64,000 nt of DNA from Neocallimastix lanati (nom. inval.) (taxonomy: Eukaryota > Neocallimastigomycota > Neocallimastigomycetes > Neocallimastigales > Neocallimastigaceae): assembly GCA_016946835.1 (NCBI GenBank), contig JACVTC010000005.1:1-64000 (forward strand), written 5' to 3'. Within the stretch, counting starts at the first letter, position 1. Each line of letters begins with the position of its first letter. Below, piece after piece: positions 2,261-36,808 of the stretch. The notes under the pieces were generated by a model, which was given only the letters and a program-made list of their open reading frames with translations, searched no databases and was not told the origin of the DNA. Position numbers and translations under genes: made by a program.

Positions 2261-5200
2261 TTACCAACATGCACCATAATTGGATTGACATCCAGAACTC
2301 TTTTCACAGTACTTTTTGGAAGTACCACAGTAACCATACTTACTACAGCATTCACCATGAAGACATTTGCCATACTTTTCACCACATCTTCCATTTAAAG
2401 ATTTTCTAATAGTTCTCATAGTGGTGGTCTCAGTAATAGTCTTCTTAGTTTTGCAGTTTCCAAATTCTGATTGACAACCTTCACTTATATTACAGTATTT
2501 ACTAGAAATTCCACACCAACCATATTTACTACAACATTCACCTTCTGGACATTTACCATACTTACTACCACATCTTCCATTAGTATTAATAACTTCATTA
2601 CATTTTCCAAATTCAGATTGACATCCTTGGTTTACATCACAGTATTTTTGACTCTTTCCACACCAGCCATACTTACTACAACAGTATCCCTTTGCACATT
2701 TACCATATCCTTTACCACATCTCTCAGTACTTCCTTCAGTTTTTCCTGTACTATTACATTGACCAAATTCGGACTGACATCCTTGGTTTACATCACAGTA
2801 CTTTTCACTCTTTCCACACCATCCGTGCTTACTACAACAATATCCCTTCTTACAAACTCCGAATCCTTTACCGCATCTATCATTTTCAGATACCTTTGCA
2901 GTCTTTGGACTTTCATTATCATCTTCAGTTGGAATTCCGGCAATTTCGGCATCAGATTGCTTTCCATTTCCGTTGTTTTTATTACATTCACCAAATTCAG
3001 ATTGACATCCTTGGTTTACATCACAGTACACTTCACTCTTTCCACACCATCCGTACTTACTACAACAATATCCCTTCTTACAAACTCCGAATCCTTTACC
3101 GCATCTATCATTTTCAGATACCTTTGCATTCTTTGGACTTTCTTCATCATCTTCAGATTCATTATCATCTTCAACTGGGGCTCCAGTAATTTCATCATCG
3201 TCATCAGATTTTTCATCATCTTCAACTATACCATTACATTTTCCATATTTGGATTGACATCCTTGGTTTACATCACAGTACTTCTCACTTTTTCCACACC
3301 ATCCGTACTTACTACAACAATATCCTTCAGCACATTTACCATATCCTTCACCACATTTATCATTATTGTTATTTGTTTCTCTTGAAGTACTAGTTTTCGT
3401 ACTAGTTTGAATTTTATTTGTAGTAGTAGTCACAGTAGCAGATTGAGAGTCAGTAGCAGTAGCACTACCAGTTACAGTAGCAGATTGAGAGTCAGTAGCA
3501 GTAGCACTATCAGTTACAGTAGCAGATTGAGAGTCAGTAGCAGTAGCACTATCAGTTACAGTAGCAGATTGAGAGTCAGTAGCAGTAGCACTACCAGTTA
3601 CAGTAGCAGATTGAGAGTCAGTAGCAGTAGCACTACCAGTTACAGTAGCAGATTGAGAGTCAGTAGCAGTAGCACTATCAGTTACAGTAGCACTATCAGT
3701 TACAGTAGCACTATCAGTTACAGTAGCACTATCAGTTACAGTAGCACTATCAGTTACAGTAGCACTATCAGTTACAGTAGCACTATCAGTTACAGTAGCA
3801 CTATCAGTTACAGTAGTAATTGTAAATTCACGTGGTGTTTCTTCTTCACCATTATTTTCTTCTTCTCCATCATTATTTTCTTCTTCTCCATCATTATTTT
3901 CTTCTTCTCCATCATTATTTTCTTCTTCTCCATCATTCATTTCTTCCTCTTTTTCTTCTTCTTCATTTTCTTCTTCTTCTTCTTCTTCATTTTCTTCTTC
4001 TGCTTCAATTGCTTCTTCTTCATTTTCTTCTTCTTCTTCATTTTCTTCTTTTTCTTCATTTTCTTCTTCATCATTCTCTTCTTCATTATTTTCTTCTTCT
4101 TCTTCTTCTTCTTCTTCTTTTTCTTCATTTTCTTCTTCATTATTTTCTTTTTCATCATTCTCTACTTCATCATTTTCTTCTCCATCATTCTTTTCTTCCT
4201 CATTTTCTTCTTCTTCATTACAACCAACACACTCTTCTTCTTCATTTTCTTCTTCTTCATTTTCTTCTTCTGCTTCAATATCTCTTTCTTCCGCTTCAAT
4301 TGCTTCTTCATTTTCTTCTTCTTTTTCATTTTCTTCTTTTTCTTCATTTTCTTCTTCATTTTCATTTTCTTCTTTTTCTTCATTTTCTTCTTCATTATTC
4401 TCTTCTTCATTATTTTCTTCTTCTTCTTCTTCTTCTTCTTCTTCTTCATTTTCTTCTTCTTCTTCCTCTTCATTCTCTTCTTCTTCATTTTCTTCATTTT
4501 CTTCTTCTTCATTTTCTTCTTCGTTCTCTTCTTCTTCTTCTTGATTTTCTTGATTTTCTTCTTCATTTTCTTCTTCTTCTTTTTCATTTTCTTCTTCCTC
4601 ATTTTCTTCTTCTTCTCCTTCTTCATTTTCTTCTTCATTCTCTTCTTCCTCATTCATTTCTTCCTCTTCTTCTTCTTCTTCATTTTCTTCTTCTTCTTCT
4701 TCCTCTTTATTCTCTTCTTCTTCTTCTTCATTTTCTTCTTCATTATTTTCTTCATTCTCTTCTTCTTCTTCTTCATTTTCTTCTTCATTATTTTCTTCAT
4801 TCTCTTCTTCTTCTTCTTCTTCATTTTCTTTATTTTCTTCTTCTTCTTCTTCATTTTCTTCTTTTTCTTCATTTTCTTCTTCATCATTTTCTTCTTCATT
4901 ATTTTCTTCTTCTTCTTCTTCTTCTTCTTCTTCTTCTTCTTTTTCTTCATTTTCTTCTTCATTATTTTCTTCTTCATCATTTTCTTCTTCATCATTCTCT
5001 TCTTCATCATTTTCTTCTTCTTCATTACAACCAACACACTCTTCTTCATTTTCTTCTTCTTCATTTTCTTCCTCATTCTCTTCTTCATTCTCTTCTTCTT
5101 CATTTTCTTCATTTTCTTCATTTTCTTCTTCTTCTTCCTCTTCATTATTTTCTTCTTCTTCTTCTTCATTTTCTTTATTTTCTTCTTCTTCTTCTTCTTC

Positions 5201-8200
5201 ATTTTCTTTATTTTCTTCTTCTTCTTCTTCATTTTCTTCTTTTTCTTCATTTTCTTCTTCATCATTTTCTTCTTCATTATTTTCTTCTTCTTCTTCTTCT
5301 TCTTCTTCTTCTTCTTCTTCATTTTCTTCTTCATCATTCTCTTCTTCATCATTTTCTTCTTCTTCATTACAACCAACACACTCTTCTTCATTTTCTTCTT
5401 CATCATTTTCTTCTTCTTCTTCTTCAACTGTTTCTTCTTCTTCAATATTTTCTTCTTCTTCTTCTTCTTCAACTGTTTCTTCTTCTTCAATATTTTCTTC
5501 TTCTTCTTCAATATTTTCTTCTTCTTCATCATCAATATTTTCTTCTTCTTCTTCTTCAATATTTTCTTCTTCTTCTTCTTCAATATTTTCTTCTTCTTCT
5601 TCCTCTTCTTCATTTTCTTCTTCTTTTTCTTCTTCTTCATTATTTTCTTCTTCCTCTTCATTATTTTCTTCTTCTTCTTCTTCTTCTTCATTTTCTTCTT
5701 CTTCTTCATTATTTTCTTCTTCCTCTTCATTATTTTCTTCCTCTTCTTCTTCTTCTTCATTTTCCTCTTCCTCTTCATTATTTTCTTCTTCTTCTTCTTC
5801 TTCATTTTCTTCTTCTTCTTCCTCTTCTTCATTTTCTTCTTCCTCTTCCTCTTCTTCATTTTCTTCTTCTTCTTCTTCTTCTTCTTCATTTTCTTTATTT
5901 TCTTCTTCATTTTCTTCTTCTTCTTCCTCTTCTTCATTTTCTTCTTCTTCTTCTTCTTCTTTATTTTCTTCTTCTTCTTCATTATTTTCTTCCTCTTCTT
6001 CTTCTTCATTTTCTTCTTCCTCTTCATTTTCTTCTTCCTCTTCATTATTTTCTTCCTCTTCTTCTTCTTCATTTTCTTCTTCCTCTTCTTCTTCCTCTTC
6101 ATTATTTTCTTCTTCTTCTTCTTCTTCATTTTCTTCTTCTTCTTCATTATTTTCTTCCTCTTCTTCTTCTTCTTCATTTTCCTCTTCCTCTTCATTATTT
6201 TCTTCTTCTTCTTCTTCTTCTTCATTTTCTTCTTCTTCTTCCTCTTCTTCATTTTCTTCTTCCTCTTCCTCTTCTTCATTTTCTTCTTCTTCTTCTTCTT
6301 CTTCATTTTCTTTATTTTCTTCTTCATTTTCTTCTTCTTCTTCTTCTTCTTTATTTTCTTCTTCCTCTTCATTATTTTCTTCCTCTTCTTCTTCTTCATT
6401 TTCTTCTTCCTCTTCATTTTCTTCTTCCTCTTCATTATTTTCTTCCTCTTCTTCTTCTTCTTCATTTTCTTCTTCCTCTTCTTCTTCCTCTTCATTATTT
6501 TCTTCTTCTTCTTCATTTTCTTTATTTTCTTCTTCCTCTTCTTCATTTTCTTCTTCCTTTTCTTCTTCTTCATTTTCTTCTTCTTCTTCATTATTTTCTT
6601 CTTCCTCTTCATTATTTTCTTCCTCTTCTTCTTCTTCTTCATTTTCTTCTTCCTCTTCTTCTTCCTCTTCATTATTTTCTTCTTCTTCTTCTTCATTTTC
6701 TTTATTTTCTTCTTCTTCTTCATTATTTTCTTCTTCCTCTTCATTATTTTCTTCCTCTTCTTCTTCTTCTTCATTTTCCTCTTCCTCTTCATTATTTTCT
6801 TCTTCTTCTTCTTCTTCTTCTTCATTTTCTTCTTCCTCTTCCTCTTCTTCATTTTCTTCTTCCTTTTCTTCTTCTTCATTTTCTTCTTCTTCTTCATTAT
6901 TTTCTTCTTCCTCTTCATTATTTTCTTCTTCTTCTTCTTCATTTTCTTTATTTTCTTCTTCTTCTTCATTATTTTCTTCTTCCTCTTCATTATTTTCTTC
7001 CTCTTCTTCTTCTTCTTCATTTTCCTCTTCCTCTTCATTATTTTCTTCTTCTTCTTCTTCTTCTTCATTTTCTTCTTCCTCTTCCTCTTCTTCATTTTCT
7101 TCTTCCTTTTCTTCTTCTTCATTTTCTTCTTCTTCTTCATTATTTTCTTCTTCCTCTTCATTATTTTCTTCCTCTTCTTCTTCTTCTTCATTTTCTTCTT
7201 CCTCTTCCTCTTCTTCATTTTCTTCTTCCTCTTCATTATTTTCTTCTTCTTCTTCTTCATTTTCTTTATTTTCTTCTTCTTCTTCTTCATTTTCCTCTTC
7301 CTCTTCATTATTTTCTTCTTCTTCTTCTTCTTCTTCATTTTCTTCTTCCTCTTCCTCTTCTTCATTTTCTTCTTCCTTTTCTTCTTCTTCATTTTCTTCT
7401 TCTTCTTCATTATTTTCTTCTTCCTCTTCATTATTTTCTTCCTCTTCTTCTTCTTCTTCATTTTCTTCTTCCTCTTCTTCTTCCTCTTCATTATTTTCTT
7501 CTTCTTCTTCTTCATTTTCTTTATTTTCTTCTTCTTCTTCATTATTTTCTTCTTCCTCTTCATTATTTTCTTCTTCTTCTTCTTCTTCTTCATTTTCTTC
7601 TTCCTCTTCCTCTTCTTCATTTTCTTCTTCCTCTTCCTCTTCTTCATTTTCTTCTTCTTCTTCTTCTTCTTTATTTTCTTCTTCCTCTTCATTATTTTCT
7701 TCCTCTTCTTCTTCTTCTTCTTTATTTTCTTCTTCCTCTTCATTATTTTCTTCCTCTTCTTCTTCTTCTTCATTTTCCTCTTCCTCTTCATTATTTTCTT
7801 CTTCTTCTTCTTCTTCTTCTTCATTTTCTTTATTTTCTTCTTCCTCTTCTTCATTTTCTTCTTCCTCTTCATTATTTTCTTCTTCTTCTTCTTCTTCATT
7901 TTCTTCTTCCTCTTCATTATTTTCTTCCTCTTCTTCTTCTTCTTCTTCATTTTCTTCTTCCTCTTCCTCTTCTTCATTTTCTTCTTCTTTTTCTTCTTCT
8001 TCATTTTCTTCTTCTTCTTCTTCTTCTTCATTTTCTTCTTCTTCTTCTTCTTCCTCTTCATTTTCTTCTTCCTCTTCATTATTTTCTTCTTTTTCTTCTT
8101 CTTCATTTTCTTCTTCCTCTTCCTCTTCTTCATTTTCTTCTTCCTCTTCATTATTTTCTTCTTCTTCTTCTTCTTCTTCATTTTCTTTATTTTCTTCTTC

Positions 8201-8421
8201 CTCTTCTTCATTTTCTTCTTCTTCTTCTTCTTTATTTTCTTCTTCCTCTTCATTATTTTCTTCCTCTTCTTCTTCTTCATTTTCCTCTTCCTCTTCATTA
8301 TTTTCTTCTTCTTCTTCTTCTTCTTCATTTTCTTCTTCCTCTTCCTCTTCTTCATTTTCTTCTTCCTCTTTATTATTTTCTTCTTCTTCTTCTTCCTCAT
8401 TTTCTTCTTCCTCTTCCTCTT
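2261..8421 (-). CDS. Last exon: poly-Glu/Asn, Thr-Ser-Asp repeat and six CBM18 domains
   Basis: The exon opens after acceptor TTATAG at 8422-8427 and stays in one frame for 2,053 codons to the stop at 2261. Because this frame has no Met before 4657, a Met-based call would lose 1,254 codons. Residues from 8421 to about 3845 are Glu/Asn/Asp/Lys-rich, with three copies of ECVGCN (near 4217-4234, 5024-5042, 5366-5384) and several NNDGEEE repeats. From about 3830 to 3420 comes a TVTDSA hexamer repeated about eight times, then about six 14-residue TATDSQSATVT units, probably an O-glycosylated linker. Six CBM18 (hevein-like) domains follow, near 3365-3230, 3115-2985, 2880-2755, 2735-2595, 2585-2450 and 2400-2264. 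Each has the CCSKYGWCG-type core with aromatic sugar-binding residues (YGYCG in the sixth) and eight Cys. The protein ends ACW. Confidence 0.9.
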
Positions 8422-10379
8422 CTATAATTGTAAATTATAAGGGAAATAACGTAAAAAATAAATAAAAATAATTGTTTAAATTTTAAAATATGTGTTAATA
8501 ATAATAATTAATAAAACTGATAATTTTTTTTTATTTATATATATAATGATTAAAATATTACTGAATATATTTAACATTTTTTTTTTTTTTGATAAAAAAT
8601 ATTATTAATAATTTTTAATATTAATAATTATTATGAGTATTATTATTTATTACTAATATGTTTTAAATGAAACAATAATTATTTTAATATTTATTTACCT
8701 TTAGAATCAATAGTACAATCACTCCATACTTATAAACGTATATAATAAGTACATACATTATTATATTTTTATAGAAACAGATTAATTATTATTTATATCT
8801 TAGAGAATTATATTAAATAATTATAAATATTTATATTTGTTATTTTTACCTATTCTACAGACTTTTTGTATTAAAAAATATTTTATTTTATAAATTTAAT
8901 ATATTATAATTAAATAATATAGTTTTATTTTATATAATTATGAGTAACATATATTGATAAAAATATGTCAATAATAATATTAATTTAATATAAATATTTA
9001 TTTATAAATTTATATTTAAATATTTAAAATCATTATAATGTATTAAAATAAAAAAAAATATTTATTAATTTTATATTAAAATTTGTTATTGTATGATTTT
9101 AATAAACAGCTTACCTTTTTTTTATTTATTTTTTTTTTATAAATTTATTAATATTAATCATATTAAATATAAAATAATATATATATTAATAAATATTTTG
9201 TTTTTAATTTAATAAACATTTATAATACTTACAATGATAGCAATTAGCTCTACTTGATAAATTATTATTTAAATTTTCTATATTTATATATATATATATA
9301 TATTTTTTTTTACAATTAAAAAACATAATAATATATAATTTTTAATTTTTATCATATTAAAATATAGATATATATATAATTAATAATATTATATTTGTTA
9401 ACATTAAAAATTCATTTTAATTTTTATACTATTTATTTTATTTTTTATTTTTTATTTTTTTATTTCTTATTATATAATTATTTATTTATACCTTTGAATT
9501 TATCAAGTCCTAAAAATAATTTGTTAATATAATTTTTAAAGAGATAATAGATGAAAAAAATTAATAAATGTTTAAATTTTTATTATATTATATTATTAAT
9601 ATTAATTTAATAAAAGATCATTTACCATAATTACAAGCTTTTCATTTAAATAAAAAATATTAAATTATAAAGAAATTTTTTATATTTTTATTTTAGATAT
9701 GTGTTAACGGAAAAAATAAATAAAGTTTTTAATAATTTTACAATTTTTAATTTATTTATTAATTTTAATCGAGAGTAATGTTTTTATCAAAAATTTTATA
9801 AAATATCATTTATTGTATAAATGTTTTTATTTTTTATTTTATTTTATTTTATTTTTTTTTTTTTTTTTTTTTTTTTATTATAAATAATTTTTTTTATATT
9901 TCATTAGATTTATTAATTTAATAAATATATATATATATATATAAATATTTAATATTTATTAATATGTATCTTTAAAAAATTATTTTTTACTTATTTATTA
10001 ATATATATTAATTTAATTACCAGATGTGCACTCTTTTTATGTTTTAAATGAAAATTTTATTTAAAATATATGAAGAAAAGTATATTAAAATTACATATAA
10101 AATAATTGAAAATAAATTGTTATATTGTTATTATTTAATATGAATAACATAAATTTTTTTTTTTTAAAAAAATATAAATTTTTTTATTATAAATACCTTT
10201 TAGACAAGTATCATCACCTATTAAGAATATTTTATAAATTATTTATAATGATAAAAACAAAATGAATAATAAAAATAAACATAATTTAATTAAATAAATA
10301 AAAATTAAATTTTCAATACTAAAAAATTTATCATTTATATATTTTAATTTATTTATTAAATAATTAATAATATATAATT

Positions 10380-10423
<44 letters not shown>

Positions 10424-11105
10424 AAAACTACTTACTTTCACAACTTCCTAAATAATTTATGAATTTAGAAGTTCAATAAAAATAAGTATAAAAATCAGTA
10501 AATATTTTTAATTAAATAGAAAAAAATTTATAAATATTTTTTGTTCAAATTACCAGAGCATTCTTTATATTATATATTTAAGGATTATATCACAATATTT
10601 TAATGTATTAAAAAAAAAAATTATTAATTTATAATTATAATATTTTCAATTAATTTTGGTATTTATATTATATAATTCAATATTTATTTAATTAATTTTT
10701 TATTAATAAATTTATTTAAATATATTATACATATGAATTTTTAATTACCATTAATACATGCATTGTATCCTTTATATTAAAATAAATAATCATCATTTTT
10801 AAAATACCAAATTTAAATATTAGTATAAATTTTATTTTTTTTTTTTTTTGTATAATTTTAATAATTATATATTTATAAAAATTTTTATAATTGATACATT
10901 TATTTATTTAAAAGTAATACTAATATATTTACCACTTTTTTCAGCTTATTAATGATATTATGTTATATAAGTAAGAAAAAAATCATATATTTATAAAATA
11001 TTTAAAATAGGAATTTAAATATTTATTTAATTTGATTAATTTTGATAGAAATTCTAATATTAATATTTACCAACTATAAATGTAAATTCAATTAGTGACA
11101 TAAAA

Positions 11106-11149
<44 letters not shown>

Positions 11150-14100
11150 ATAAAAAATAATTTTAATATATAAAAAAATTATGAAAGGCTTTATTTAAAT
11201 ATTTGATATAATTATATTTAATAATGCTTAAATATATTATATATCCTTACAATCTATTTATATTTTATAAAATAATATTAAAAATAAAAAAAAATTAAAT
11301 AAATATATATTTTATTAATTATTAATTATAACAATTTTGGGCTTTTATAATGGTTTTTTTTTTTTTTTCATATATATAGAATAAATTTGATTTATTGTAA
11401 AATTTAAAAAACAAATTGGTTTTAATTTTTATAGTAAATGTAATTATATAATTACCCTGACTTTCTATTCCTGTTTTTCGGTAAAAAAAATTATTGTGAT
11501 TTAAAATAATATATTTTATATACAATTTAATTTAAAGATTATATAAATATATATATTTTTATAGTATTTATATTTAAAAATATATAATTTTTTTCTTTAT
11601 TGTCAATCCATATTTACCACCATCTATTAATGAAAAATTAAATTTTAAATAAAATTAAAAATATATATATGCGTTTAAAATATTTATAACGATATAGTTT
11701 ATGAATAATTAATTTTAATTAATTTTAAATCATTAATTATGATATTTATTATATATATTTATACTTACAAACTATTTTTTAGTAATAATAAATAATATAT
11801 ATATATTTAAAATATATTTTTATATATGTATTTTAATTATAATTAATTCGAATAATTTTTATTAACTTAATTACATATTTATACTTACTTTCTATTTATA
11901 CAGAATGATTTATAACATAATATTAAATTTAATTATTTTAAAAATATTTATAATATATATTTTTCAATAATTTATATGATATTTAATATATTTTTAAATT
12001 GGTATACTTACCACCTTTTATATGAAATAATTAACAACATAAAATTAAAAATATAAAATTATCATTATATTAATTATATTTTCATTTATCAACAATTAAT
12101 TCTAATAACATCTATATTATTTAATATATATTATTTAATATATTATTAAATTTTTATTTATACTTACCAACTTTTCATTTAAAGCATTTTATTGTACAGT
12201 CAAAAACATACAAGTAATAATGATAAATGTTAAATATTTTAAATATCTTTAATACTGATATTAATAATACTTAAAATAATATAATAAATATATATTTATA
12301 CGTACCAGCTATTTTATATAAAATAATTTATAACATTAAATTTATAATTAAATATTTGAATGATTGATAATAAATATATTTATTTTAAAATTAATATCAA
12401 GAATTTTTAATAATATAGTTAAATGTATATACTTATACTTACTAGCTATTTGTATGAAACAATTTGCAGTATAAAATTTATAATAATTACATATTTAAAT
12501 AATTGATTATTAATTTTTGGTATTTACAATTAATATTATGATTTTTTAATAATAAAGTTAAATGTATATTTTGGCTTACCTGCTATTTTTGTAAAGCAAT
12601 TTGTGGTATAAAATTTAAAATAATTAAATATTTAAATGATTTGTAATAAATATATCTTATTAATAAATTATTTTAAAAATTTTAAATTATATCTAAATAT
12701 AAAATTATACTTACACTTTGTTTCTGTGAAGCAATTTGTAGTATAAAATTTAAAATTATTATATATTTGAACGATTAATTATAAATGTATGTTAATTACT
12801 ATTAATTTCAACAATTTTGATAATATATTTAAATGTATATTTGTACTTACGTCCTATTAATATAAAATAATTCGTAATATAAATTAATATTATAATTAAA
12901 TATTTAAAATAAATATATTACATACAATTAAATGCAAATATTTTTAACAATATATTTAAATATATATTTATATTTACTTTCTATTTATATGAAGCAATTT
13001 GTTTTAAATAATTTATGAAAATTAAATAATTAAATTTTTATAATATAAGTTATAATTAATTTTAAAAATTTAATTAACACACGTAGACATATATTAATAT
13101 ATACTTCCTTTTTATATAAAATATTTTATAATATAAAATTTATAAAAATTAAAAATTTGAATTATTGATAATAAATTTATATTATATACAATAAATAAAA
13201 AGAATATTTTTTTAATATATTTAAATACATATTTTTACTTACTCCCTATTTATAAGAAATTATTTGCAATAAAAAATTAACAAATATATATTTAATTTTT
13301 TTTTAATAAATATATGTTTTTATAATTATTTGAATATAATTTTATAATATATAATTGCATATTTATATTTACAAGCTATTTACATAAAGTAATTTGTAAT
13401 ATATAATTTAATATTTTCATATTTAAAAGATCAATAATAATCATATTTTATTTACAATTAATAAAAAGAATAATTTATAATATATTTAATTATATAATTA
13501 TACTTACGACCTATTTATATGAAATTATTTAATATAGAATATTAATAGATAATTATTTAAAATATATTTATTAATTTTTTTTTATTTTCATTTAATTTTA
13601 AGAATATTTTATAATATATTTAATTGTATATTAATACTTACCAACTATTTATATAAAATTATTTGTAATAAAAAATTTATATATAAATATAATTAAAATA
13701 TTTTTATTGAATACATTTTATTTTCAATTAATAAATTAGTATTTTATAATAGTTTTAATTGTATATTTATACTTACTAACTATTTATATTAAGTAATTTG
13801 TAATACATAATTTTATATTTAAATATTTAAATGATTAATAATAAATATATGTTATATAAAATTAATTAAATGAATATTATATAACATATTTAAATGTACA
13901 TCTATACTTACAATCTATTTATTTGAAATTATTTGTAATAAAAAAATTATATATAAATAAAATTAAAATAATTTTATTAGATATATTTTATTTTCAATTA
14001 TTAAATTAGCATTTTATAATAGTTTTAATTGTATATTAATACTTACCATCTATTTATATAAAATTATTTGTAATAAAAATTTTATATATAAATATAATTA

Positions 14101-17100
14101 AAACATTTTTATTAAATACATTTTATTTTCAATTAATAAATTAGTATTTTATAATAGTTTTAATTGCATATTTATACTTACCATCTATTTATATGAAATT
14201 ATTTATAAAAGAATATTAATAGATAATTATTTAAAATATATTTAGTAAACTTTTTTTATTTTCATTTAATTAAGATTATTCTATTATATATTTAATTGTA
14301 TATTAATACTTACTATCTATTTATATGAAATTATTTGTAATAAAAAATTATATATAAATATAATTAAAATAATTTTATTAGATATATTTTATTTTCAATT
14401 AATAAATTAGTATTTTATAATAGTTTTAATTGCATATTTATACTTACTAACTATTTATATTAAGTAATTAGTAATATATAATTTTATATTTTAATATTTA
14501 AATGATTAATAATAAATATATGTTATATACAATTAATTAAAAGAATATTTTATAATATATTTAAATGCATATCTATACTTACAATCTATTTATTTAAAAT
14601 TATTTATAATAGAATATTAATAGATAATTATTTTAAATATATTTATTAATTTTTTTTTTATTTTCATTTAATTTTAAGAATATTTTATAATATATTTAAT
14701 TGTATATTAATACTTACCATCTATTTATATGAAATTATTTTAATAAAAAAATTATATATAAATATGATTAAAACATTTTTATTAAATACATTTTATTTTC
14801 AGTTAATAATAAAGTATTTTATAATAGTTTTAATTGCATATTTATACTTACCAACTATTTATATTGAGTAATTTGTAATACATAATTTTATATTTAAATA
14901 TTTAAATAATTAATAATAAATATATGTTATATACAATTAATTAAAAGAATATTTTATAATATATTTAAATGCATATCTATACTTACAATCTATTTATTTA
15001 AAATTATTTATAATAGAATATTAATAGATAATTATTTAAAATATATTTATTAATTTCTTTTTTATTTTCATTTAATTTTAAGATTATTCTATTATATATT
15101 TAATTGTATATTAATACTTACCATCTATTTATATGAAATTATTTGTAATAAAAAATTTATATATAAATATGATTAAAACATTTTTATTAAATACATTTTA
15201 TTTTCAGTTAATAAAAAAGTATTTTATAATAGTTTTAATTGCATATTTATACTTACCAACTATTTATATTGAGTAATTTTTAAAAAATAATTTTATATTT
15301 AAATATTTAAATGATTAATAATAAATATATGTTATATACAATTTATAATAGAATATTTTATAATATATTTAAATGAATATATATACTTACAATCTATTTA
15401 TTTGAAATTATTTATAATAAATTATTTATAGATAATTATTTAAAATGTATTTAGTAAATTTTTTTTTATTTTCATTTAATTTTAAGAATATTTTATAATA
15501 TATTTAATTGTATACTAATACTTACCATCTATTTATATGAAATTATTTGTAATAAAAAATTTATATATAAATATAATTAAAATATTTTTATTAAATACAT
15601 TTTATTTTCAATTAATAAATTAGTATTTTATAATAGTTTTAATTGTATATTTATACTTACCAACTATTTATATTATGTAATTTGTAAAAAATAATTTTAT
15701 ATTTAAATATTTAAATGATTAATAATAAATATATATTATATACAATTAATTAAAAGAATATTTTATTATATATTTAAATGTATATCTTTGCTTACAATCT
15801 GTTTATTTGAAATTATTTGTAATAAAAAAATTATATATAAATAAAATTAAAATAATTTTATTAGATATATTTCATTTTCAATTATTAAATTAGTATTTTA
15901 TAATAGTTTTAATTGTATATTAATACTTACCATCTATTTATATAAAATTATTTGTAATAAAAATTTTATATATAAATATAATTAAAACATTTTTATTAAA
16001 TACACTTTATTTTCAGTCAATAAAAAAGTATTTTATAATAGTTTTAATTTCATATTTATACTTACCAACTATTTATATTATGTAATTTGTAAAAAATAAT
16101 TTTATATTTAAATATTTAAATGATTAATAATAAATATATGTTATATACAATTAATTAAAAGAATATTTTATTATATATTTAAATGTATATCTTTACTTAC
16201 AATCTATTTATTTGAAATTATTTATAATAGATTATTAATAGATAATTATTAAAATGTATTTAGTAAATTTTTTTTTTTTTATTTTCTTTTAATTTTAAGA
16301 TTATTCTATTATATATTTAATTGTATATTAATACTTACCATCTATTTATATGAAATTATTTGTAATAAAAATTTTATATATAAATATTATTAAAACATTT
16401 TTATTAAATACATTTTATTTTCAGTTAATAAAAAAGTATTTTATAATAGTTTTAATTGCATATTTATACTTACCAACTATTTATATTATGTAATTTGTAA
16501 TAAATAATTTTATATTTAAATATTTAAATGATTAATAATAAATATATATTATATACAATTAATTAAAAGAATATTTTATTATATATTTAAATGTATATCT
16601 TTACTTACAATCTATTTATTTTAAATTATTTATAATAGATTATTTATAGATAATTATTTAAAATGTATTTAGTAATTTTTTTTTATTTTCATTTAATTTT
16701 AAGAATATTTTATAATATATTTAATTGTATATTTATACTTACCATCTATTTATATGAAATTATTTGTAATAAAAAATTTATATATAAATATAATTAAAAT
16801 ATTTTTATTAAATACATTTTATTTTCAATTAATAAAAAAGTATTTTATAATAGTTTTAATTGTATATTTATACTTACCAACTATTTATATTATGTAATTT
16901 GTAAAAAATAATTTTATATTTAAATATTTAAATGATTAATAGTAAATATATGTTATATACAATTAATTAAAAGAATATTTTATTATATATTCAAATGTAT
17001 ATCTTTACTTACAATCTGTTTATTTGAAATTATTTATAATAGATTATTAATAGATAATTATTTAAAATATATTTATTAATTTTTTTTTAATTTCATTTAA

Positions 17101-20100
17101 TTTTAAGAATATTTTATAATATATTTAATTGTATATTAATACTTACTCTCTATTTATATGAAATTATTTTAATAAAAAAATTATATATAAATATGATTAA
17201 AACATTTTTATTAAATACATTTTATTTTCAATTAATAAATTAGTATTTTATAATAGTTTTAATTGTATATTTATACTTACCAACTATTTATATTAAGTAG
17301 TTTGTAATGCATAATTTTATATTTAAATATTTAAATGATTAATAATAAATATATGTTATATACAATTTATAATAGAATATTTTATAATATATTTAAATGA
17401 ATATATATACTTACAATCTATTTATTTGAAATTATTTATAATAGATTATTAATAGATAATTATTTAAAATGTATTTAGTAAATTTTTTTTTTATTTTCAT
17501 TTAATTTTAAGAATATTTTATAATATATTTAATTGTATATTAATACTTACCATCTATTTATATGAAATTATTTGTAATAAAAAATTTATATATAAATATG
17601 ATTAAAATATTTTTATTGAATACATTTTATTTTCAATTAATAAATTAGTATTTTATAATAGTTTTAATTGTATATTTATACTTACCAACTATTTATATTA
17701 TGTAATTTGTAAAAAATAATTTTATATTTAAATATTTAAATGATTAATAATAAATATATATTATATACAATTAATTAAAAGAATATTTTATTATATATTT
17801 AAATGTATATCTTTGCTTACAATCTGTTTATTTGAAATTATTTATAATAGATTATTAATAGATAATTATTTAAAATATATTTATTAATTTTTTTTAATTT
17901 CATTTAATTTTAAGAATATTTTATAATATATTTAATTGTATATTAATACTTACCATCTATTTATATGAAATTATTTTAATAAAAAAAATTATATATAAAT
18001 ATGATTAAAACATTTTTATTAAATACATTTTATTTTCAATTAATAAATTAGTATTTTATAATAGTTTTAATTGTATATTTATACTTACCAACTATTTATA
18101 TTAAGTAGTTTGTAATGCATAATTTTATATTTAAATATTTAAATGATTAATAATAAATATATGTTATATACAATTTATAATAGAATATTTTATAATATAT
18201 TTAAATGAATATATAAACTTACAATCTATTTATTTGAAATTATTTATAATAGATTATTAATAGATAATTATTTAAAATGTATTTAGTAAATTTTTTTTTT
18301 TATTTTCATTTAATTTTAAGAATATTTTATAATATATTTAATTGTATATTTATACTTACCATCTATTTATATGAAATTATTTGTAATAAAAAATTTATAT
18401 ATAAATATGATTAAAACATTTTTATTAAATACATTTTATTTTCAGTTAATAAAAAGGTATTTTATAATAGTTTTAATTGCATATTTATACTTACCAACTA
18501 TTTATATTATGTAATTTGTAAAAAATAATTTTATATTTAAATATTTAAATGATTAATAATAAATATATATATATTATATACAATTAATTAAAAGAATATT
18601 TTATTATATATTTAAATGTATATCTTTACTTACAATCTGTTTATTTGAAATTATTTATAATAGATTATTAATAGATAATTATTTAAAATATATTTATTAA
18701 TTTTTTTTTAATTTCATTTAATTTTAAGAATATTTTATAATATATTTAATTGTATACTAATACTTACCATCTATTTATATGAAATTATTTGTAATAAAAA
18801 ATTTATATATAAATATAATTAAAATATTTTTATTGAATACATTTTATTTTCAATTAATAAATTAGTATTTTATAATAGTTTTAATTGTATATTTATACTT
18901 ACTAACTATTTATATTAAGTAATTTGTAATACATAATTTAATATTTAAATATTTAAATGATTAATAATAAATATATGTTATATAAAATTAATTAAATGAA
19001 TATTATATAACATATTTAAATGTACATCTATACTTACAATCTATTTATTTGAAATTATTTGTAATAAAAAAATTATATATAAATAAAATTAAAATAATTT
19101 TATTAGATATATTTTATTTTCAATTATTAAATTAGTATTTTATAATAGTTTTAATTGTATATTAATACTTACCATCTATTTATATAAAATTATTTGTAAT
19201 AAAAATTTTATATATAAATATAATTAAAACATTTTTATTAAATACATTTTATTTTCAATTAATAAATTAGTATTTTATAATAGTTTTAATTGCATATTTA
19301 TACTTACCATCTATTTATATGAAATTATTTATAAAAGAATATTAATAGATAATTATTTAAAATATATTTAGTAAACTTTTTTTATTTCCATTTAATTAAG
19401 ATTATTCTATTATATATTTAATTGTATATTAATACTTACTATCTATTTATATGAAATTATTTGTAATAAAAAATTATATATAAATATAATTAAAATAATT
19501 TTATTAGATATATTTTATTTAAATATTTAAATGATTAATAATAAATATATGTTATATAAAAGTAATTAAATGAATATTTTAAAACATATTTAAATGTATA
19601 TCTATACTTATAATCTATTTATTTGAAATTATTTATAATAGATTATTCATAGATAATTATTTAAAATATATTTAGTAAATTTTTTTTTAATTTAAATTAA
19701 TTTTAAGAATATATTTAATTATATATTTAAACTAACTATCCCTTTATAAATTATTAGATAAATATTTATAATTTTTTTTATTAAATATATGTTATTTATA
19801 ATTAAAAGAAGAGTATTTTATAAAAGATTTGATTTTATATTTATACTTACCAGCTATATAGATGAAATAATTTGTAATATAAAATTTAATATTTATATAT
19901 TTAAGCAATTATAATAAATATATGTTTTATACAATTAAAAAAAAATAATATTTTATAATGTATTCAATTATATAATTATACTTACGTGCTATTTATTTGA
20001 AATTATTTGTAATAGAAAAGTAATAGATAAATATTTAAATTATTTTTATTATATATAAATATGTTATTTTCAAATAATAAAAAAAATATTTTATAATATA

Positions 20101-20534
20101 TTCAAATATATATTTATACTTACGGACTATTTATATTGAGTAATTTATATTATAAAATCAATAATAATTAAATATTGTAATAATTGATGTTTAGTATATG
20201 TTTTTTATTATCAAATTTTATATTTATATTATTAAATATAATTTATTATAAAAGCATTATATATAGTGTTTATACAAAAAAAAAGACAAATTTTATAATA
20301 ATATTATTAAATATATTATTATTAATTATAAAAAATAAAAACTTTAAAATTATGAAATGCCTACAATAATCTTCACAAGCTTTATTTTTTTATTATTTAT
20401 TTTAAATTATATTTTATATATTTTATAATATTAAAATAAATATTTTTTAAAAAAAAAAATATTAAATATTAATAATTAGATTATTATAATAAATTAAATT
20501 TTACTTTAATAATATATATTCCATATAAATTAAT

Positions 20535-20569
<35 letters not shown>

Positions 20570-21352
20570 TTTATTTTATTTTATTTTATTAATTCTGTAC
20601 TTTATATACATATTCTACTATTTATTTTATTTTATTTTATTTTATTTTATGTTATTTTATTTTATTTTATTTTATTATTAAATATTTTTTAATAATTATA
20701 TAAATATATATTAAATAATAATTTATTTTGTTTTATTTATTTATTAAAAATGATATTTACTTTTAGCACATATATTCGCCCCTATATCAATTTTAAGTAT
20801 AATGGAAAAAAAAAAAAAAAAGTAATAATTTTAATATAAAGTTATACATAAAGATATTAGGTTTATTATATAATATATATATCCAATTTACCATAATCAC
20901 AAGCTAAAGGAGAATTATAAATTTATTATATAATTTTTTAGTATTTTAGTATAAAAATTTATAAATTTTACATCAGTAATTAAAATTTATTAAATCTAAT
21001 ATTTCTAATATCTTTATTACTTTTTTTTTTTAAAAAAATATATATATATATATATATATTTATGAAAAAAAAAAAATTTATATAAATAAATAAATAAATA
21101 AATACATTTAAAACAAAAAAAGCCTTTATGATTTTTATTTCTAAACTAATAATATAACTAATATATTTTATAAAACATTTTATTTTTTTTTTCATACCTT
21201 GAGTTACATCTAATAATTGTTTTTTTATTTAATATATGATAATAGCATATTGATTTGCATTAAATATTTATTATATATATATGATAATATATAAATACTT
21301 TTTTTGTTAATATATTTGATTAATTTAAAATAATATATTCTAAATAAAAATG

Positions 21353-21396
<44 letters not shown>

Positions 21397-21465
21397 AATT
21401 TAAAATATATATTCTAAATAAAAATGAAAAAAAAAAAAAAAAAAAAATTAAAATATATATTCTAA

Positions 21466-21504
<39 letters not shown>

Positions 21505-21564
21505 AAGAGTAATAAATATTATGGGTGATATTTGAAATTTATATATAAGATAATTTACCGATGG
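2261..21564 (-). CDS. Micro-exon gene: Cys-rich / (DDF)n / poly-Glu / six-CBM18 protein
   Basis: I infer one gene made of at least 83 micro-exons (3-30 nt) plus a 6,161-nt last exon. Each micro-exon is framed by an acceptor ending AG (usually ATAAATAG) and a donor (usually GTAAGTAT). Every exon length is a multiple of three, and every junction splits a codon after its first base (phase 1). The joined frame has no stop across all 83 junctions and enters the last exon in its open Glu/Asn frame at 8421. The predicted product, from its N-terminal side, is: a Cys-bearing segment (ACDYGANICAKTCEDY), a long Asp-Asp-Phe repeat, a basic stretch (GPWRKRQTKSATVGEIYG), a second Cys-rich segment (CINECSGSCESDDTCLKEC ... 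ANCYHFCRIVWSDC), about 1,500 Glu/Asn residues, a Thr/Ser/Asp linker and six CBM18 domains. CBM18 binds chitin; acidic and Cys-rich parts suggest a secreted or wall protein. The 5' end with start codon and signal peptide is not identified. Splicing is inferred from motifs and frame, not from RNA. Confidence 0.75.
3845..8421. repeat. 4.6-kb homopyrimidine/homopurine CTT-GAA tract
   Basis: The plus strand is almost purely C and T (CTT, TTC, ATT codon-sized units) for about 4.6 kb. The minus strand encodes Glu and Asn. Such polypurine tracts can form triplex DNA and are prone to length change. The long Phe/Ile and Leu/His open frames on the plus strand and the Lys/Met frames on the minus strand are by-products of this composition. 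Confidence 0.9.
8699..11470 (-). CDS. Micro-exon cluster encoding the second Cys-rich domain (6-30 nt exons)
   Basis: Exons in transcription order, with residues assigned in phase 1: 11456-11470 (GIESQ), 11251-11253 (D), 11071-11073 (F), 10933-10944 (AEKS), 10749-10769 (GYNACIN), 10554-10562 (ECS), 10436-10447 (GSCE), 10197-10217 (SDDTCLK), 10021-10032 (ECTS), 9626-9637 (ACNY), 9492-9509 (GLDKFK), 9233-9247 (ANCYH), 8850-8861 (FCRI), 8699-8728 (VWSDCTIDSK). The next exon starts at 8421 with Glu. All donors are GTAAGT, GTAAAT, GTAATT or GTAT types. Nine of the 14 exons carry exactly one Cys, so the exon structure places one Cys per exon through the domain. Spacing CINEC, CSGSC, CLKEC looks like a real disulfide-rich domain rather than chance. 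I do not recognise the family. Confidence 0.75.
11618..20126 (-). CDS. Array of 62 three-nucleotide exons (plus one 6-nt and one 9-nt exon)
   Basis: Start positions of the exons (3 nt each unless stated), in transcription order: 20124, 19986, 19851, 19733, 19612, 19440, 19308, 19173, 19038, 18903, 18768, 18634, 18495, 18360, 18223, 18089, 17954, 17821, 17686, 17551, 17415, 17281, 17147, 17013, 16878, 16743, 16609, 16474, 16339, 16201, 16066, 15931, 15796, 15661, 15526, 15391, 15257, 15122, 14987, 14852, 14718, 14583, 14448, 14314, 14182, 14047, 13912, 13777, 13642, 13508, 13373, 13243, 13105, 12978, 12851, 12715 (9 nt), 12580, 12443, 12306, 12168, 12012, 11889, 11769, 11618 (6 nt). Most contexts read ATAAATAG, exon, GTAAGTAT. 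In the core, exons ATG, ATT and TTG rotate, so phase 1 yields D-D-F over and over. Exons from 13508 down to 11889 each add one residue of a non-repetitive basic stretch. Weak sites: 19612 has AT instead of the donor GT, and 19733 has donor GTTTAA. Confidence 0.75.
11760..20160. repeat. Tandem array, about 134-bp units in a three-unit (about 404-bp) higher-order period
   Basis: The motif ACTTACC-ATC/AAC-TATTTATAT (plus strand) recurs every 133-137 bp about 62 times. Between 13.6 and 19.4 kb three unit types alternate (exon ATG, ATT, TTG), each with its own spacer, so the real duplicating unit is about 404 bp. Copies in 14.7-18.7 kb are nearly identical, while both flanks are more diverged, the usual pattern of an array that expands in the middle. 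Confidence 0.9.
20365..21564 (-). CDS. 5' micro-exons encoding the first Cys-rich segment
   Basis: Five exons precede the 3-nt array: 21559-21564 (last residue I), 21198-21209 (DVTQ), 20892-20903 (ACDY), 20761-20781 (GANICAK) and 20365-20379 (TCEDY). All are multiples of three and phase 1, and the donors are GTAAAT, GTATGA, GTAAAT, GTAAAT and GTAGGC. The exon contents resemble those of the second cluster: ACDY here and ACNY at 9626 come from near-identical 12-nt exons, which suggests the two Cys-rich clusters share ancestry. The exon that supplies the start codon lies further upstream and was not found with confidence. Confidence 0.65.
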
Positions 21565-21569
21565 CTTTT

Positions 21570-23675
21570 ACAAAATTCGTTAAAAATTTTAATAGTAAAA
21601 TATTATATAAAATGCTACATTTATATTGAAGAATTATAAATTAAATTTAAAAATTTTGAATAATATTAAGATATCATATCCTAAACAACTAAATAATGTA
21701 TAAAATATTATATAATAATCGTTTTTTATACTATATATTACCTATAATATTTCAGTAACATTTTTTAAAAGTTTTTTTATGATATTAAAATAAAAATAAA
21801 AAAAAAAGTAAAGAAAAAAAAATTATTTCCACTTTACAAGTTTTATTTCTTGGATATATGAATCATATATAGTGTTATAATGTATTATTTATTAAAATAA
21901 TAAATATATAATACATATATGGATTTAAATATAAAAAAAAAAAAAAAAAAAAAAAGTTAAATTAATTATTGAATTAATTAAAAATGTTTTTAATTAACTC
22001 TAAAAATTTTAATTTAGATTTAACTTTTTAATTTAAAAATAAAATTTTTTAATTTCCTTTTTCATTTATTATTTTAAAAAAAGTGGCGAAGTCAATAATA
22101 TATATATTTAATCCATTATACCGTAAAAAAATTAACTCTGATTTAAATCAATAGATAGTTTTTGTATCTTTTAATTCTAAAACTAATAAATAGATATATT
22201 TATTATTAATTAACATTTCTGCCTATATGGAAGTGTTGTGACTACTTCAATATTCTGCATAAGGCTGTACACATCGGAAATAAATAATAAATAAGAAACA
22301 TCAATAATAAATTATTTTAAAATAAATAAAATATATTTATATATTATAATAATAATTGTTTTTTATTAATATTAATTTGAAACATCTTTTTCTATAGAAT
22401 ATAATATGTATAATTTATTATTAAATAAAAAATTTTTGATACTTCATAATTAAATATTTTAATTTATCATAATTTGAATTTTTTTTTATTATATAATCGT
22501 ATCTCTTAATTAAAAAAAAAATAAATATAAATATATAAATTTTTAATTTATGATTATATTCTATAAATATATAAATACATATAATAAAATTACAATAATA
22601 ATTAATGTTATTATAAAAGTAAATAAATTGAATAAATATATTATACTATTTATAATTAATTTCATAAATTAATGTAGATTACATAAATATTTGTAATGAA
22701 ATTTTATTGTGTAACAAATGAATAATCACATGATTGAATATGTGACTTTTATGTCCTATATATTTTTAATAGTATTAATTGTATTTTATTAATATTAATA
22801 TCTTTTCCTGAAATTATACCCAAGATAACTTCGCTATATTCAATAGAAAAAAAAAATGAATGATTTATTATTAGGATTATTTACATATAAAAATTATATA
22901 TAATAATAATATATAATATAATATATAATAAATATTAATATAATAAATAATATCAACTATATATTTAATTATAATTAAAATAACTACATCTATTTCATTA
23001 TATTAATAAAATATTTAAAACTTTAAAATAAAATGGCACATATAATTTCTTTGAAAAATAATTATTAAAATATAAAATGTGATATATTTCAAAAAAATTG
23101 ATGATTTACAAATATATTTAATTCGCCATCTTCTGAAAATTTTTATTTATTTATTAGTTTATTTATTTATTTAATAATAATATTTAATAATATTTTTTTT
23201 TTATAATAATATTATTATATATATTTAGAAGAAATTAACTATTTAATATATTTAATATTATAATTAATAATATATATGAATACTGAATAATATATGAATA
23301 AGAAGAGATATTAAATTTCAATATTTAATAATTATTATTAAATATACAGAATATGTTAACTACATAACTACACATATTTGTTTTATATATATAAAATGTA
23401 TTAATCATTAATGAATTACAATATAATAAAGTGTAATTAAATAAAAACTAAGTGTAATTAACAGCTAATAATTAATAACTCTATTTATATTAAAAATTTT
23501 CCACTTTTTGAAAAACTAATTATATCAATATAATATATAATAAAAATTTTTTATTTTTATAAATTTCAATTAAATAAATATTGCTTATTATTAAAACTTG
23601 GAAAATATATAATAAGCCTTAATAATAAAATATAAATATCAATAATAAGTATAAAATTTTATTTAATTTTTTTTA

Positions 23676-27116: not shown

Positions 27117-28540
27117 ATGGATGATCAATTAGAAATAAGTGAAACTAATAAAGAAAAAAACCAAATAATTGTAAACAAAAAATATAAATTTAATTTATGG
27201 TATATAACGAATAATACAAAAGTATTTAAATGTACTGAATATAAAATTGTTAAAAAATGTAAATCATACATTATTCTAAATGATAATAATAAAGTAATAA
27301 AATATGAAAACAAACATACTCATCCAGGAAAAGAATATGATGCATCTGTATCAATAGTAAAACATAAAATGAAAAATGAAATTGGAAAAACCTCAATCCC
27401 ATTTGATATAAATCCAATACATATATATAATGAAATATCTGAAGAAATTGGATTGATATGCCCTGAATATAATTCAATTAAATCTCAAATATCAAGATAT
27501 ATAAAAAAACAACTACCTCCTGATATATCAAAATTTAATAAAATTCCAGATGAATCTGAATATTATATAAACGAAAGAGATGAAAATTTTATGATATTCA
27601 AAAATTCTAATATTATAATTTTTCAATCACCATTCCAAACAGAATTGTTTATTAAATACAACGAAAATATGTTTGCTGATGGTACATTTTATATTGCACC
27701 AATATTTAGTTATCAAGTGTTTATAACAAGAGTATATGCTCCAGAAATAAATAGTTTTTACACTACATCATTATCTATATTAAATAATAAAGAACAAGCA
27801 ACCTATGAATTGTTATTTGAAGAATTAAAAAAGAATGCAAGTAAATATAATAATAATATTATAGTTACACCAAAAATTTTGCATTGTAATTTTGAAAAAG
27901 GTATATCCAATGCTGCCATTAAAATATTTCATAATATTACTATTAAATATTGTGTATGGCATTATAAAAGATCGTTAGAAGTTCAAAAAAACAGATTATG
28001 TTATAATGAAGTTGAAAGTAATCATAAAATTTATTTGTTTTATAAAGCTATTACAAATTTTCCTTTTATAAATCCTGAATATATATTTGATATTTATAAT
28101 TATATTAAAATTATATGTCAAATATATAATTATTTCCATTTTTTAAATTTTTTGGAATATTTTAATAAGACTTATTTATATAAATATGATATTCAATATT
28201 GGAATTATTATAACGATATAAACCACATAACAAATAATGCTTCAGAATCTTTTAACAATTACTTAAATAAAATTGTTTTACAAAAAACCTTCTTTCTATG
28301 AATTGATTTATCATTTAAAAAGAGAAGAATCTTTATCTTACAATAATTACAAAAGGAAAATTGAAGGAGTTTGGAAAAAAAAAAGAAGAATATTAGCAAA
28401 AACTGATGAAATCAATGATTTAATTAAAAAATACAAAAAAAAAGGAAAAAAGGAATCCGAATTAATTGAAAAAAAAATGTGATAAAAATGATATCATTGA
28501 TTTATGGTATAAATGTTTATTAGAATTAAACAAGCTCTAA
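27117..28540 (+). pseudogene. MULE transposase with FLYWCH-like N-terminus, frameshifted
   Basis: The first 394 codons run intact from ATG at 27117. Residues about 25-65 (KFNLWYITNN...KCTEYK...HTHPG) resemble a FLYWCH/WRKY-GCM zinc-binding domain. The MULE DDE domain follows: FADGTFYIAP carries the first Asp, and the segment ILHCNFEKGISNAA is where families normally have Asp-Phe-Glu; here it is Asn, while the second copy in this window keeps CDFEQG. The C-terminal ASESFNNYLN motif is present. The frame breaks near 28270-28300 and continues in another frame (FYELIYHLKREESLSYNNY). It breaks again at an A-run near 28475, with the end ...LWYKCLLELNKL at 28540. Two breaks plus the Asn make it probably inactive. 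Confidence 0.85.
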
Positions 28541-36526: not shown

Positions 36527-36808
36527 GATATTATTATTATTAATGTTATTGTTATTGTTAATGTTATTATTATTATTAATGTTATTGTTATTGTTAATGT
36601 TATTATTATTATTAATGTTATTGTTATTGTTATTGTTATTGTTATTGTTATTGTTATTGTTATTGTTATTGTTATTGTTATTGTTATTGTTATTGTTATT
36701 GTTATTGTTATTGTTATTGTTATTGTTATTGTTATTGTTATTGTTATTGTTATTGTTATTGTTATTGTTATTGTTATTGTTATTGTTGTTGTTATTGTTA
36801 TTATTAAA
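36527..36808. repeat. Poly-Asn-coding AAC/AAT repeat inside the Copia element
   Basis: About 90 Asn/Ile codons in a row on the minus strand, with alternating AAC and AAT. The near-perfect 6-bp period shows recent slippage expansion. Confidence 0.9.

Follow-up and report, generated by a model that had tools for sequence, protein, structure and literature searches.

Runs of single-codon exons in a family of putative secreted or wall protein genes of the anaerobic gut fungus Neocallimastix lanati

The first 64,000 nucleotides of contig JACVTC010000005.1 of Neocallimastix lanati, an anaerobic gut fungus (Neocallimastigomycota; assembly GCA_016946835.1, 199 Mb in 762 contigs), hereafter the window, carry on the minus strand a gene modelled with 62 exons of exactly three nucleotides. 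We consider it highly probable that this gene belongs to a family of Neocallimastix secreted or wall protein genes in which runs of single-codon exons make up the N-terminal cysteine-rich module, and N. lanati cells very probably splice a protein together codon by codon. The repeat unit of the array is one intron of about 132 nucleotides plus one codon. In three paralogous arrays, genomic sequence and database proteins together show that such units are joined in order and in phase 1 into an open frame, which begins with conserved start and signal-peptide-like exons and ends in a large last exon. An earlier note on this DNA had proposed a gene built one codon at a time, and the database proteins bear this out for the three paralogous arrays (C268, C135a and C135b, arrays being called here by the contigs that carry them), while the window gene follows them by likeness.

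The model of the window gene runs from 21761 to 2261 and comprises 83 exons and 82 introns; GT and AG bound all 82 introns, their median length is 132 nucleotides, and the sole stop is the terminal codon. A 20-nucleotide start exon and a 56-nucleotide signal-peptide-like exon are followed by 80 micro-exons of 3 to 30 nucleotides and a last exon of 6.2 kb, so that 81 of the 83 exons, the start exon included, do not exceed 30 nucleotides. The longest unbroken run of three-nucleotide exons is 53 (20126 to 12851). The earlier note had counted about 83 micro-exons, 64 of them three nucleotides long; the first figure survives as the number of all exons and the second in a looser parse of the array, but the final model has only 80 micro-exons after the signal-peptide-like exon and 62 of three nucleotides. 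Its interval of 8699..21564 does not hold as the extent of the gene, since the start lies upstream at 21761 and the exon placed at 21564 is the end of the 56-nucleotide exon. Lengths divisible by three, claimed for all exons, are found throughout from exon 3 to the penultimate exon, but not in exon 1 (20 nucleotides) or in exon 2, whose 56 nucleotides follow from the phase-2 end of exon 1. The frame does enter the 6-kb exon rich in glutamate and CBM18 domains, which begins after an AG and lacks a methionine, as had been noted. The array part of the model was found by a search that forbids phase-1 stops, so its openness in phase 1 alone is no test; exons 1 to 5, and nine of those downstream of the array, were positioned manually using sequence and paralogs. 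The start in the window did not emerge from scans for a first exon; it was located once the TTL proteins described below had revealed a first intron in phase 2.

The minus-strand series of an acceptor-like AG, 3 to 30 nucleotides and a GTAAGT-like donor, on which the earlier note was built, is confirmed and is not a product of chance. When splice-like sites in the window were chained with exon length unconstrained, 59 of 59 exons had exactly three nucleotides, and in nine arrays with length left free, exon length is a multiple of three in 193 of 196 cases. C351 (14 of 15 divisible by three) and C70 (6 of 6) were left out of this count as copies of C104a, and the site model had been trained on AG-N3-GTAAG sites from seven of the nine arrays, a bias towards such sites but not towards any length. 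A looser site model gives 70 of 76 divisible exons in the window, 51 of 53 in C268, 27 of 28 in C235 and 10 of 14 in C135a. Across the genome, AAATAG-N3-GTAAGTAT has 146 matches versus 13 for a reversed-pattern control. All eleven spacings from 4 to 14 together have 100 matches versus 199 in the control, 34 of the 100 being one repeated sequence, and spacings 0 to 2 have 78 versus 35, with two repeated motifs accounting for 70 of the 78. Lone pattern hits fall on C1, C31 and C423, and hits at C643:669214-672487 suggest a further array.

The triplets of the window chain, joined with neither frame nor length constrained, contain no stop in phase 1 (0 of 61) or phase 0 (0 of 62) and 30 in phase 2 (of 61), which upholds the claim that no junction makes a stop in phase 1. 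One phase-1 stop each occurs in C268, C104b, C104a and C431 when triplets only are joined and the longer exons omitted. The G+C content of the triplets is 26-53%, compared with 8-11% inside introns, and of the three triplet positions the middle one, which is third in the codon when read in phase 1, is lowest in G+C in five of ten arrays, namely the window (0.05), C235, C90, C135a and C135b; it is tied lowest in C104b and is not lowest in C268, C104a, C431 and C112. Tandem Repeats Finder describes the window array as 50.8 copies of a 135-nucleotide unit (69% matches) and as 16.6 copies of a 404-nucleotide unit (87% matches). The array has thus grown by tandem duplication, and the 62 three-nucleotide exons of the window are not independent of one another; independence comes from the paralogous arrays and from the database proteins. 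These periods raise the question of whether the locus is a non-coding satellite, an AT-rich minisatellite of 135 nucleotides that carries AG-N3-GTAAGT by descent and whose triplets stay unspliced, for the regularity alone needs no splicing. We regard this explanation as scarcely credible. It is contradicted for C268, C135a and C135b by the presence of the joined triplets in proteins P0121, P0002 and P0003, and it also sits poorly with triplets that are richer in G+C and more diverged than their flanks.

The protein evidence begins with C268, whose exons were joined from genomic DNA before any database search was made. P0121, a JGI protein of 248 residues on a contig of 1132 nucleotides, reads MLLKYFKILYIVLFQEFLINFVKAQ...SFFEVHPWTSYVHGIGGWTPWPINSLASLRNCNGRGPCVRGPYKKSVELIFGTDGLDNKSGYNDCVN... 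and is close to this blind prediction. Threaded on C268, 147 of 149 residues are identical and none is skipped; beyond the first two exons the path takes in 65 more over about 12 kb, and 46 of these have three nucleotides. In the threading controls on C268, the best of 12 shuffled versions of P0121 gave 22 matches in 49 aligned residues and the reversed protein 0 in 4; P0121 itself gave 20 of 33 on C104b, 16 of 64 on the window and 1 of 4 on C235. Between its ATG and the last base of its final micro-exon, C268 spreads 523 coding nucleotides in 67 exons over 11,936 nucleotides, so the 1132-nucleotide contig of P0121 cannot represent this genomic region. When the assembly was searched with P0121, no contiguous copy was found among the best candidates scored. 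With E up to 10, 19 matches were obtained among those scored; three are single exons of C268 and C104b, and the other 16 match only weakly, within the acidic end at residues 128-247 (best E 0.003). Even a processed genomic copy of P0121 would imply a spliced mRNA. Compared with P0121, the blind parse had overlooked five of the longer exons (16211, 16645, 17652, 17856 and 19421), had taken a 6-nucleotide exon (10568) as three nucleotides and had included three wrong exons upstream of the start. Two 2-nucleotide exons from the unconstrained chain were rejected: 16221 is the end of the 12-nucleotide exon 16211 in P0121, and 15690 is not used by P0121. In the window, an 18-nucleotide exon of the looser parse at 21123-21106 was dropped, as P0121 uses no C268 exon between the counterparts of its neighbours, and phases 0 and 2 for the triplets were rejected because the last exon, the cysteine exons and the database proteins require phase 1.

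Two further proteins agree with other arrays. P0002 threads on C135a through 15 exons, 10 of them of three nucleotides, with 39 of 39 residues, and does not contain one 18-nucleotide exon that is present in the genomic DNA; P0003 threads on C135b through 17 exons, 10 of three nucleotides, with 48 of 48. The contigs of P0002, P0003 and P0004 have 1662, 1753 and 1683 nucleotides. By these database proteins, whose cDNA status is taken from the shortness of their contigs, the micro-exons of C268, C135a and C135b are joined in mature RNA. Database gene models are incomplete: P0122 and P0123 stop after the first exons, and most of what the array encodes is absent from P0001. The sole match for the window gene is P0123, which is annotated in N. 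lanati; it starts MLLKYYSILYNILLLKFLTNFVKAIDVTQ, which agrees with exon 1, and covers the first three exons before it continues into an intron.

Arrays of the same kind were found at C268, C104 (two), C235, C90, C112 and C135 (two), and one of the C104 arrays, C104a, is copied on C351, C431 and C70. The start exon and the signal-peptide-like exon are common to seven genes, those of the window, C268, C104b, C112, C235, C135a and C135b, and the hydrophobic N-terminus, judged by eye to resemble a signal peptide, is conserved in these seven and in four aligned sequences. Cysteine exons flank the arrays in the same order, as ICAK-TCEDYF ... GYNACIN in the window, TCTE-SCKSFF ... GYNDCVN in C268 and ICSN-TCNNYF ... 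GYNACID in C235. The window gene thus shares with its paralogs the start, signal-peptide-like and flanking cysteine exons, the phase and the boundary of the last exon. The last exons themselves differ: the window encodes poly-glutamate and six CBM18 stretches (PF00187, 147 bits versus a cut-off of 27.8), C268 and C104b encode poly-glutamate in the portion fetched, and C135a and C135b encode a TTL-domain enzyme, which in C135a matches the TTL family in Pfam (PF03133) with 233.6 bits versus a cut-off of 20.1. C666 and C212, the TTL paralogs that were read for their N-termini, are open from their own methionine and have no module; in C666 a short hydrophobic N-terminus passes straight into ECK, and in C135a the module lies between the two. 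No family was found by Pfam in the joined C235 module or by NCBIfam in P0121, P0002 or the window module, and a PDB search with P0121 gave no match. TTL-family enzymes can add glutamate chains, which makes it odd that secreted-looking TTL proteins have an N-terminal module in common with poly-glutamate proteins. Three TTL-domain genes lie on one stretch of C135 (L028, L024 and L031), and the match to the third begins part-way into the domain. C104a, C351 and C431 (L009, L019 and L020) have a run of ten G where their relatives have GGG, and the poly-glutamate frame is broken in C431; this duplicated copy has probably decayed. C571 (L041; 15,209 bases) ends inside the array of the window, from which it differs at 1 of 2209 aligned positions with 52 gap columns; it is a haplotig or reflects an assembly break in the satellite, and is uninformative on copy number.

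Between two intact paralogs, divergence is about threefold higher in exons than in introns. We compared C268 with C104b at the two collinear ends of the arrays, omitting the middle. At one end, 18 of 154 exon positions and 88 of 2096 intron positions differ (odds ratio 3.0, p 0.0002); at the other, 38 of 261 and 248 of 4544 (odds ratio 2.95, p 2e-7). The differing codons comprise 36 nonsynonymous and 3 synonymous cases. Faster exons than introns together with a nonsynonymous excess, by which positive selection is recognized, are therefore both found in this pair. Gap columns number 0 and 6 in exons versus 122 and 351 in introns; the 0 versus 122 of the 5' block is a further point against an unspliced satellite. 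A significant exon excess is also seen between C268 and C431 for predicted exons (p 0.0065), C431 being a copy that looks broken. Among pairs of units whose flanks differ by less than 2.5%, triplets differ by 9% in 37 pairs within the window and by 16% in 15 other pairs, the pairs not being independent of one another. The exon excess would be a signature of diversifying selection, to which a degree of constraint on the introns may have added. One triplet, TTC in C268 and GGG in C104b, differs at all three bases within 120 flanking bases that are 0.8% diverged. Changes of this kind, amid flanks that are 99% identical, could be thought to come from a system of active diversification that targets hypermutation to the three-nucleotide exons, with no part for selection. 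That the longer exons of the same genes also diverge more, with a nonsynonymous bias, makes such a system very improbable in our judgement.

A neutral ratchet of constructive neutral evolution deserves more consideration. According to this proposal, harmless in-frame duplication of units enlarges the arrays and the variation has no function, which would fit the unit structure and its satellite-like growth, the low complexity of the (DDF)n product and the existence of the TTL paralogs C666 and C212, which are open from their own methionine without the module. Neutrality predicts something other than exons exceeding introns in divergence and 36 nonsynonymous against 3 synonymous changes between C268 and C104b, however, and the module occurs on two different kinds of gene; we find the proposal possible but doubtful. 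We lean, with some reserve, towards a new kind of gene organization, a coding satellite whose unit is an intron plus a codon, in which a hypervariable segment is lengthened, shortened and diversified residue by residue in the DNA and put together codon by codon by the spliceosome, and which forms a portable phase-1 module placed on at least two unrelated kinds of gene. Duplication or loss of a unit would change the protein by one residue and keep the frame unless a junction makes a stop, and selection may diversify the residues of the array. The signal-peptide-like N-terminus, the fast-changing cysteine-rich module, the acidic stalk and the chitin-binding domains suggest a wall or secreted protein. 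We speculate that the module is likely a variable, outward-facing domain on an acidic and partly chitin-binding stalk, which would be engaged in an arms race with other organisms of the gut or with the host.

How such exons could be spliced is suggested by their introns. Between three-nucleotide exons, intron length has a median of 134 nucleotides in C268 (42 introns; middle half 131-138, range 111-280) and of 132 in the window (59 introns), and sizes this tight suit recognition across the intron. GTAAGT donors are found at 35 of the 46 three-nucleotide exons of C268 versus 6 of its 19 exons longer than six nucleotides, and AAATAG acceptors at 34 of 46 versus 1 of 19, although common descent of the units could also be the cause of these stronger sites. 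In the window, 53 of the 62 three-nucleotide exons have a GTAAGT donor. A scan for branch points was uninformative, with CTAAY occurring 6 times over 66 introns. We propose that splicing may proceed by intron definition, in the simplest case in order from 5' to 3'. Each step would turn a three-nucleotide exon into the end of a normal exon and expose its strong GTAAGT donor anew, a stepwise removal that would resemble recursive splicing yet retain three bases. The earlier note had seen the difficulty of exon-definition splicing with exons of this size as an obstacle; that principle need not be violated, as introns of about 132 nucleotides suit intron definition or stepwise splicing.

Several observations weigh against our interpretation. 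The first 8 residues of P0121 (before MLLKYF) and its last 65 (poly-glutamate) lie outside the comparison with C268, and the threading by construction accepts AG-GT exons only. That the JGI contigs are cDNA is deduced from their short span. Exon 1 of P0002 reads MFA where C135a has MFT, and this protein is C135a-like in its N-terminal part and C135b-like in the rest, so it may be a chimeric assembly. The joined C235 protein used as a query had no database match. Not every array is intact, given the G run of C104a, C351 and C431 and the broken poly-glutamate frame. The secreted role is read from the signal-peptide-like exon and CBM18 only. On the evolutionary side, the 5' flank differs between C268 and C104b at 32 of 466 positions (6.9%) versus 4.2-5.5% in introns, and the introns may thus be somewhat constrained, although their insertions and deletions argue against a strong constraint; between C104b and C431, exons are not significantly faster than introns (3 of 54 versus 49 of 1715, p 0.21). 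Finally, a profile search in which the 8000 best candidates were scored returned three proteins and no transcript of the window gene. This last result would fit an unspliced satellite, and it would equally fit a window copy that is a decayed or unexpressed member with a runaway (DDF)n expansion in a family whose paralogs are spliced. The broken look of C104a, C351 and C431 and the large similarity of the triplets inside the window array point to the latter. Set against this are an open frame through all 83 exons, the 6.2-kb last one among them (the model having been built stop-free in the array), GT-AG at 82 of 82 introns and GTAAGT donors at 53 of 62 three-nucleotide exons, and we judge decay of the window gene to be unlikely.

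Among known systems, the nearest by architecture are the micro-exon genes (MEGs) of Schistosoma and the bicycle genes of aphids. Runs of short exons, mostly divisible by three, with GT-AG introns and placed before the last exon define a micro-exon gene, and this is the architecture found here. As described in the accessible text of PMC10526429, MEGs encode secreted proteins and have consecutive short exons, mostly multiples of three, the central ones being alternatively spliced; they have 10-20 very short exons of 6-81 bp (3-81 in the abstract), mostly 15 bp, and introns of up to almost 5 kb. The Neocallimastix genes resemble them in a secreted-looking product and in many consecutive short exons divisible by three, and differ, architecture being all that was compared, in up to 62 exons of exactly three nucleotides in the window, introns of about 132 nucleotides, a satellite-like unit of intron plus codon and their occurrence in a fungus. 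MEGs reportedly also show accelerated evolution. For aphid bicycle genes, the accessible text of PMC9168663 describes many micro-exons nearly all in one phase, rapid evolution and positive selection, with about 17 exons on average, and for megacycle more than 100 microexons encoding about 2000 amino acids. Many micro-exons in a single phase and rapid evolution are shared with our genes; with about 2000 residues over more than 100 microexons, the exons of megacycle must be far longer on average, and by architecture the genes as described there differ from the single-codon arrays reported here. The view of the earlier note that nothing on this scale had been seen is therefore correct for long runs of single-codon exons but not for exon number, which megacycle exceeds (PMC9168663, in its accessible part).

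Exons down to one nucleotide are spliced in plants, where microexons of 1-15 nucleotides are known from APC11 and VPS55, the latter with a conserved GTRAGT donor (PMC8831610, accessible text). As described in that text, plant microexons are conserved and stand singly or two adjacent; those of Neocallimastix form long arrays that vary between paralogs. Recursive splicing at ratchet points or RS-exons is another system for comparison. Ratchet points are not known to leave bases in the mRNA, unlike the arrays described here, where one codon would be retained at each step. In the accessible parts of PMC8605326 and PMC6224609, recursive splicing is described as stepwise removal in which an acceptor directly precedes a donor. 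Our search of the literature did not find single-codon-exon arrays or micro-exons in anaerobic fungi or Neocallimastigomycota, but subscription journals were thinly covered and a prior description is possible. The new element is thus the long runs of single-codon exons with their satellite-like unit of intron plus codon, not the number of exons. With 46 three-nucleotide exons, mostly consecutive, joined in frame, splicing is pushed into a regime thought nearly unusable, which makes these genes a natural system in which to study intron definition and stepwise splicing and points to a new route to hypervariable proteins. The incomplete models P0122, P0123 and P0001 are also a warning for annotation, since databases may lack protein families that gut fungi build in this way.

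The exons of the window gene, all on the minus strand, are as follows. Exon 1 (21742..21761, 20 nucleotides) has the start codon, encodes MLLKYY and ends in phase 2; an AAAATG...KYF/KYY motif before GTAA is common to C268, C104b, C112, C235, C135a and C135b. Exon 2 (21559..21614, 56 nucleotides), placed by sequence and paralogs, encodes SILYNILLLKFLTNFVKAI, read by eye as signal-peptide-like. The 12-nucleotide exon DVTQ (21198..21209) agrees with P0123, and its C268 counterpart (7949) is used by P0121, as is that (8239) of the 12-nucleotide cysteine exon ACDY (20892..20903), which was placed by sequence. The parse gave the cysteine exons GANICAK (20761..20781, 21 nucleotides; C268 counterpart 8408) and TCEDY (20365..20379, 15 nucleotides; 8623). 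The array (11071..20126) holds the 62 three-nucleotide exons and one exon each of 9, 6 and 15 nucleotides, with introns of about 132 nucleotides, and encodes mostly (DDF)n; in its satellite-like body (12275..20136), the 135-nucleotide unit is an intron plus a codon and the 404-nucleotide unit holds three codons (ATG, ATT, TTG). Downstream, the parse gave AEKS (10933..10944, 12 nucleotides; C268 counterpart 16211, DNKS), the cysteine exon GYNACIN (10749..10769, 21 nucleotides; counterpart GYNDCVN, present in P0121), ECS (10554..10562, 9 nucleotides), GSCE (10436..10447, 12 nucleotides), SDDTCLK (10197..10217, 21 nucleotides), ECTS (10021..10032, 12 nucleotides), ANCYH (9233..9247, 15 nucleotides) and FCRI (8850..8861, 12 nucleotides; counterpart FCTE). 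ACNY (9626..9637, 12 nucleotides; counterpart ACEE), GLDKFK (9492..9509, 18 nucleotides; GLKSFNK) and VWSDCTIDSK (8699..8728, 30 nucleotides; EWNGCENYFN) were placed by hand. The last exon (2261..8421) starts in phase 1 after an AG with no methionine before the open frame, and encodes poly-glutamate and six CBM18 (Chitin_bind_1) stretches. Its CBM18-bearing end is rich in threonine and serine and is joined to a very long tract rich in glutamate and asparagine, and owing to its codon composition the poly-glutamate stretch leaves several reading frames of both strands open.

Elsewhere in the window, two nearly identical GH11 xylanase-like genes lie about 4 kb apart on the minus strand, at 58163-58996, assigned by Pfam, and at 62247-63053, assigned by its near-identical translation. 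Two Copia-like retroelements (35168-39376, minus strand; 51002-53812, plus strand) were recognized by eye from a gag zinc knuckle, integrase and reverse transcriptase. Related transposase-like open frames of MULE/FLYWCH appearance are found at 27117-28301 (plus strand) and 47414-48469 (minus strand), and a relative stands beside the C104a array (L009, about 2453). A dispersed repeat with about 30 copies on many contigs carries AAATAGGTAAGTAT and AAATAGTCGTAAGTAT; these two sequences often lie on opposite strands at a distance of about 3.3 kb, and the repeat looks like a mobile element with splice-like ends.

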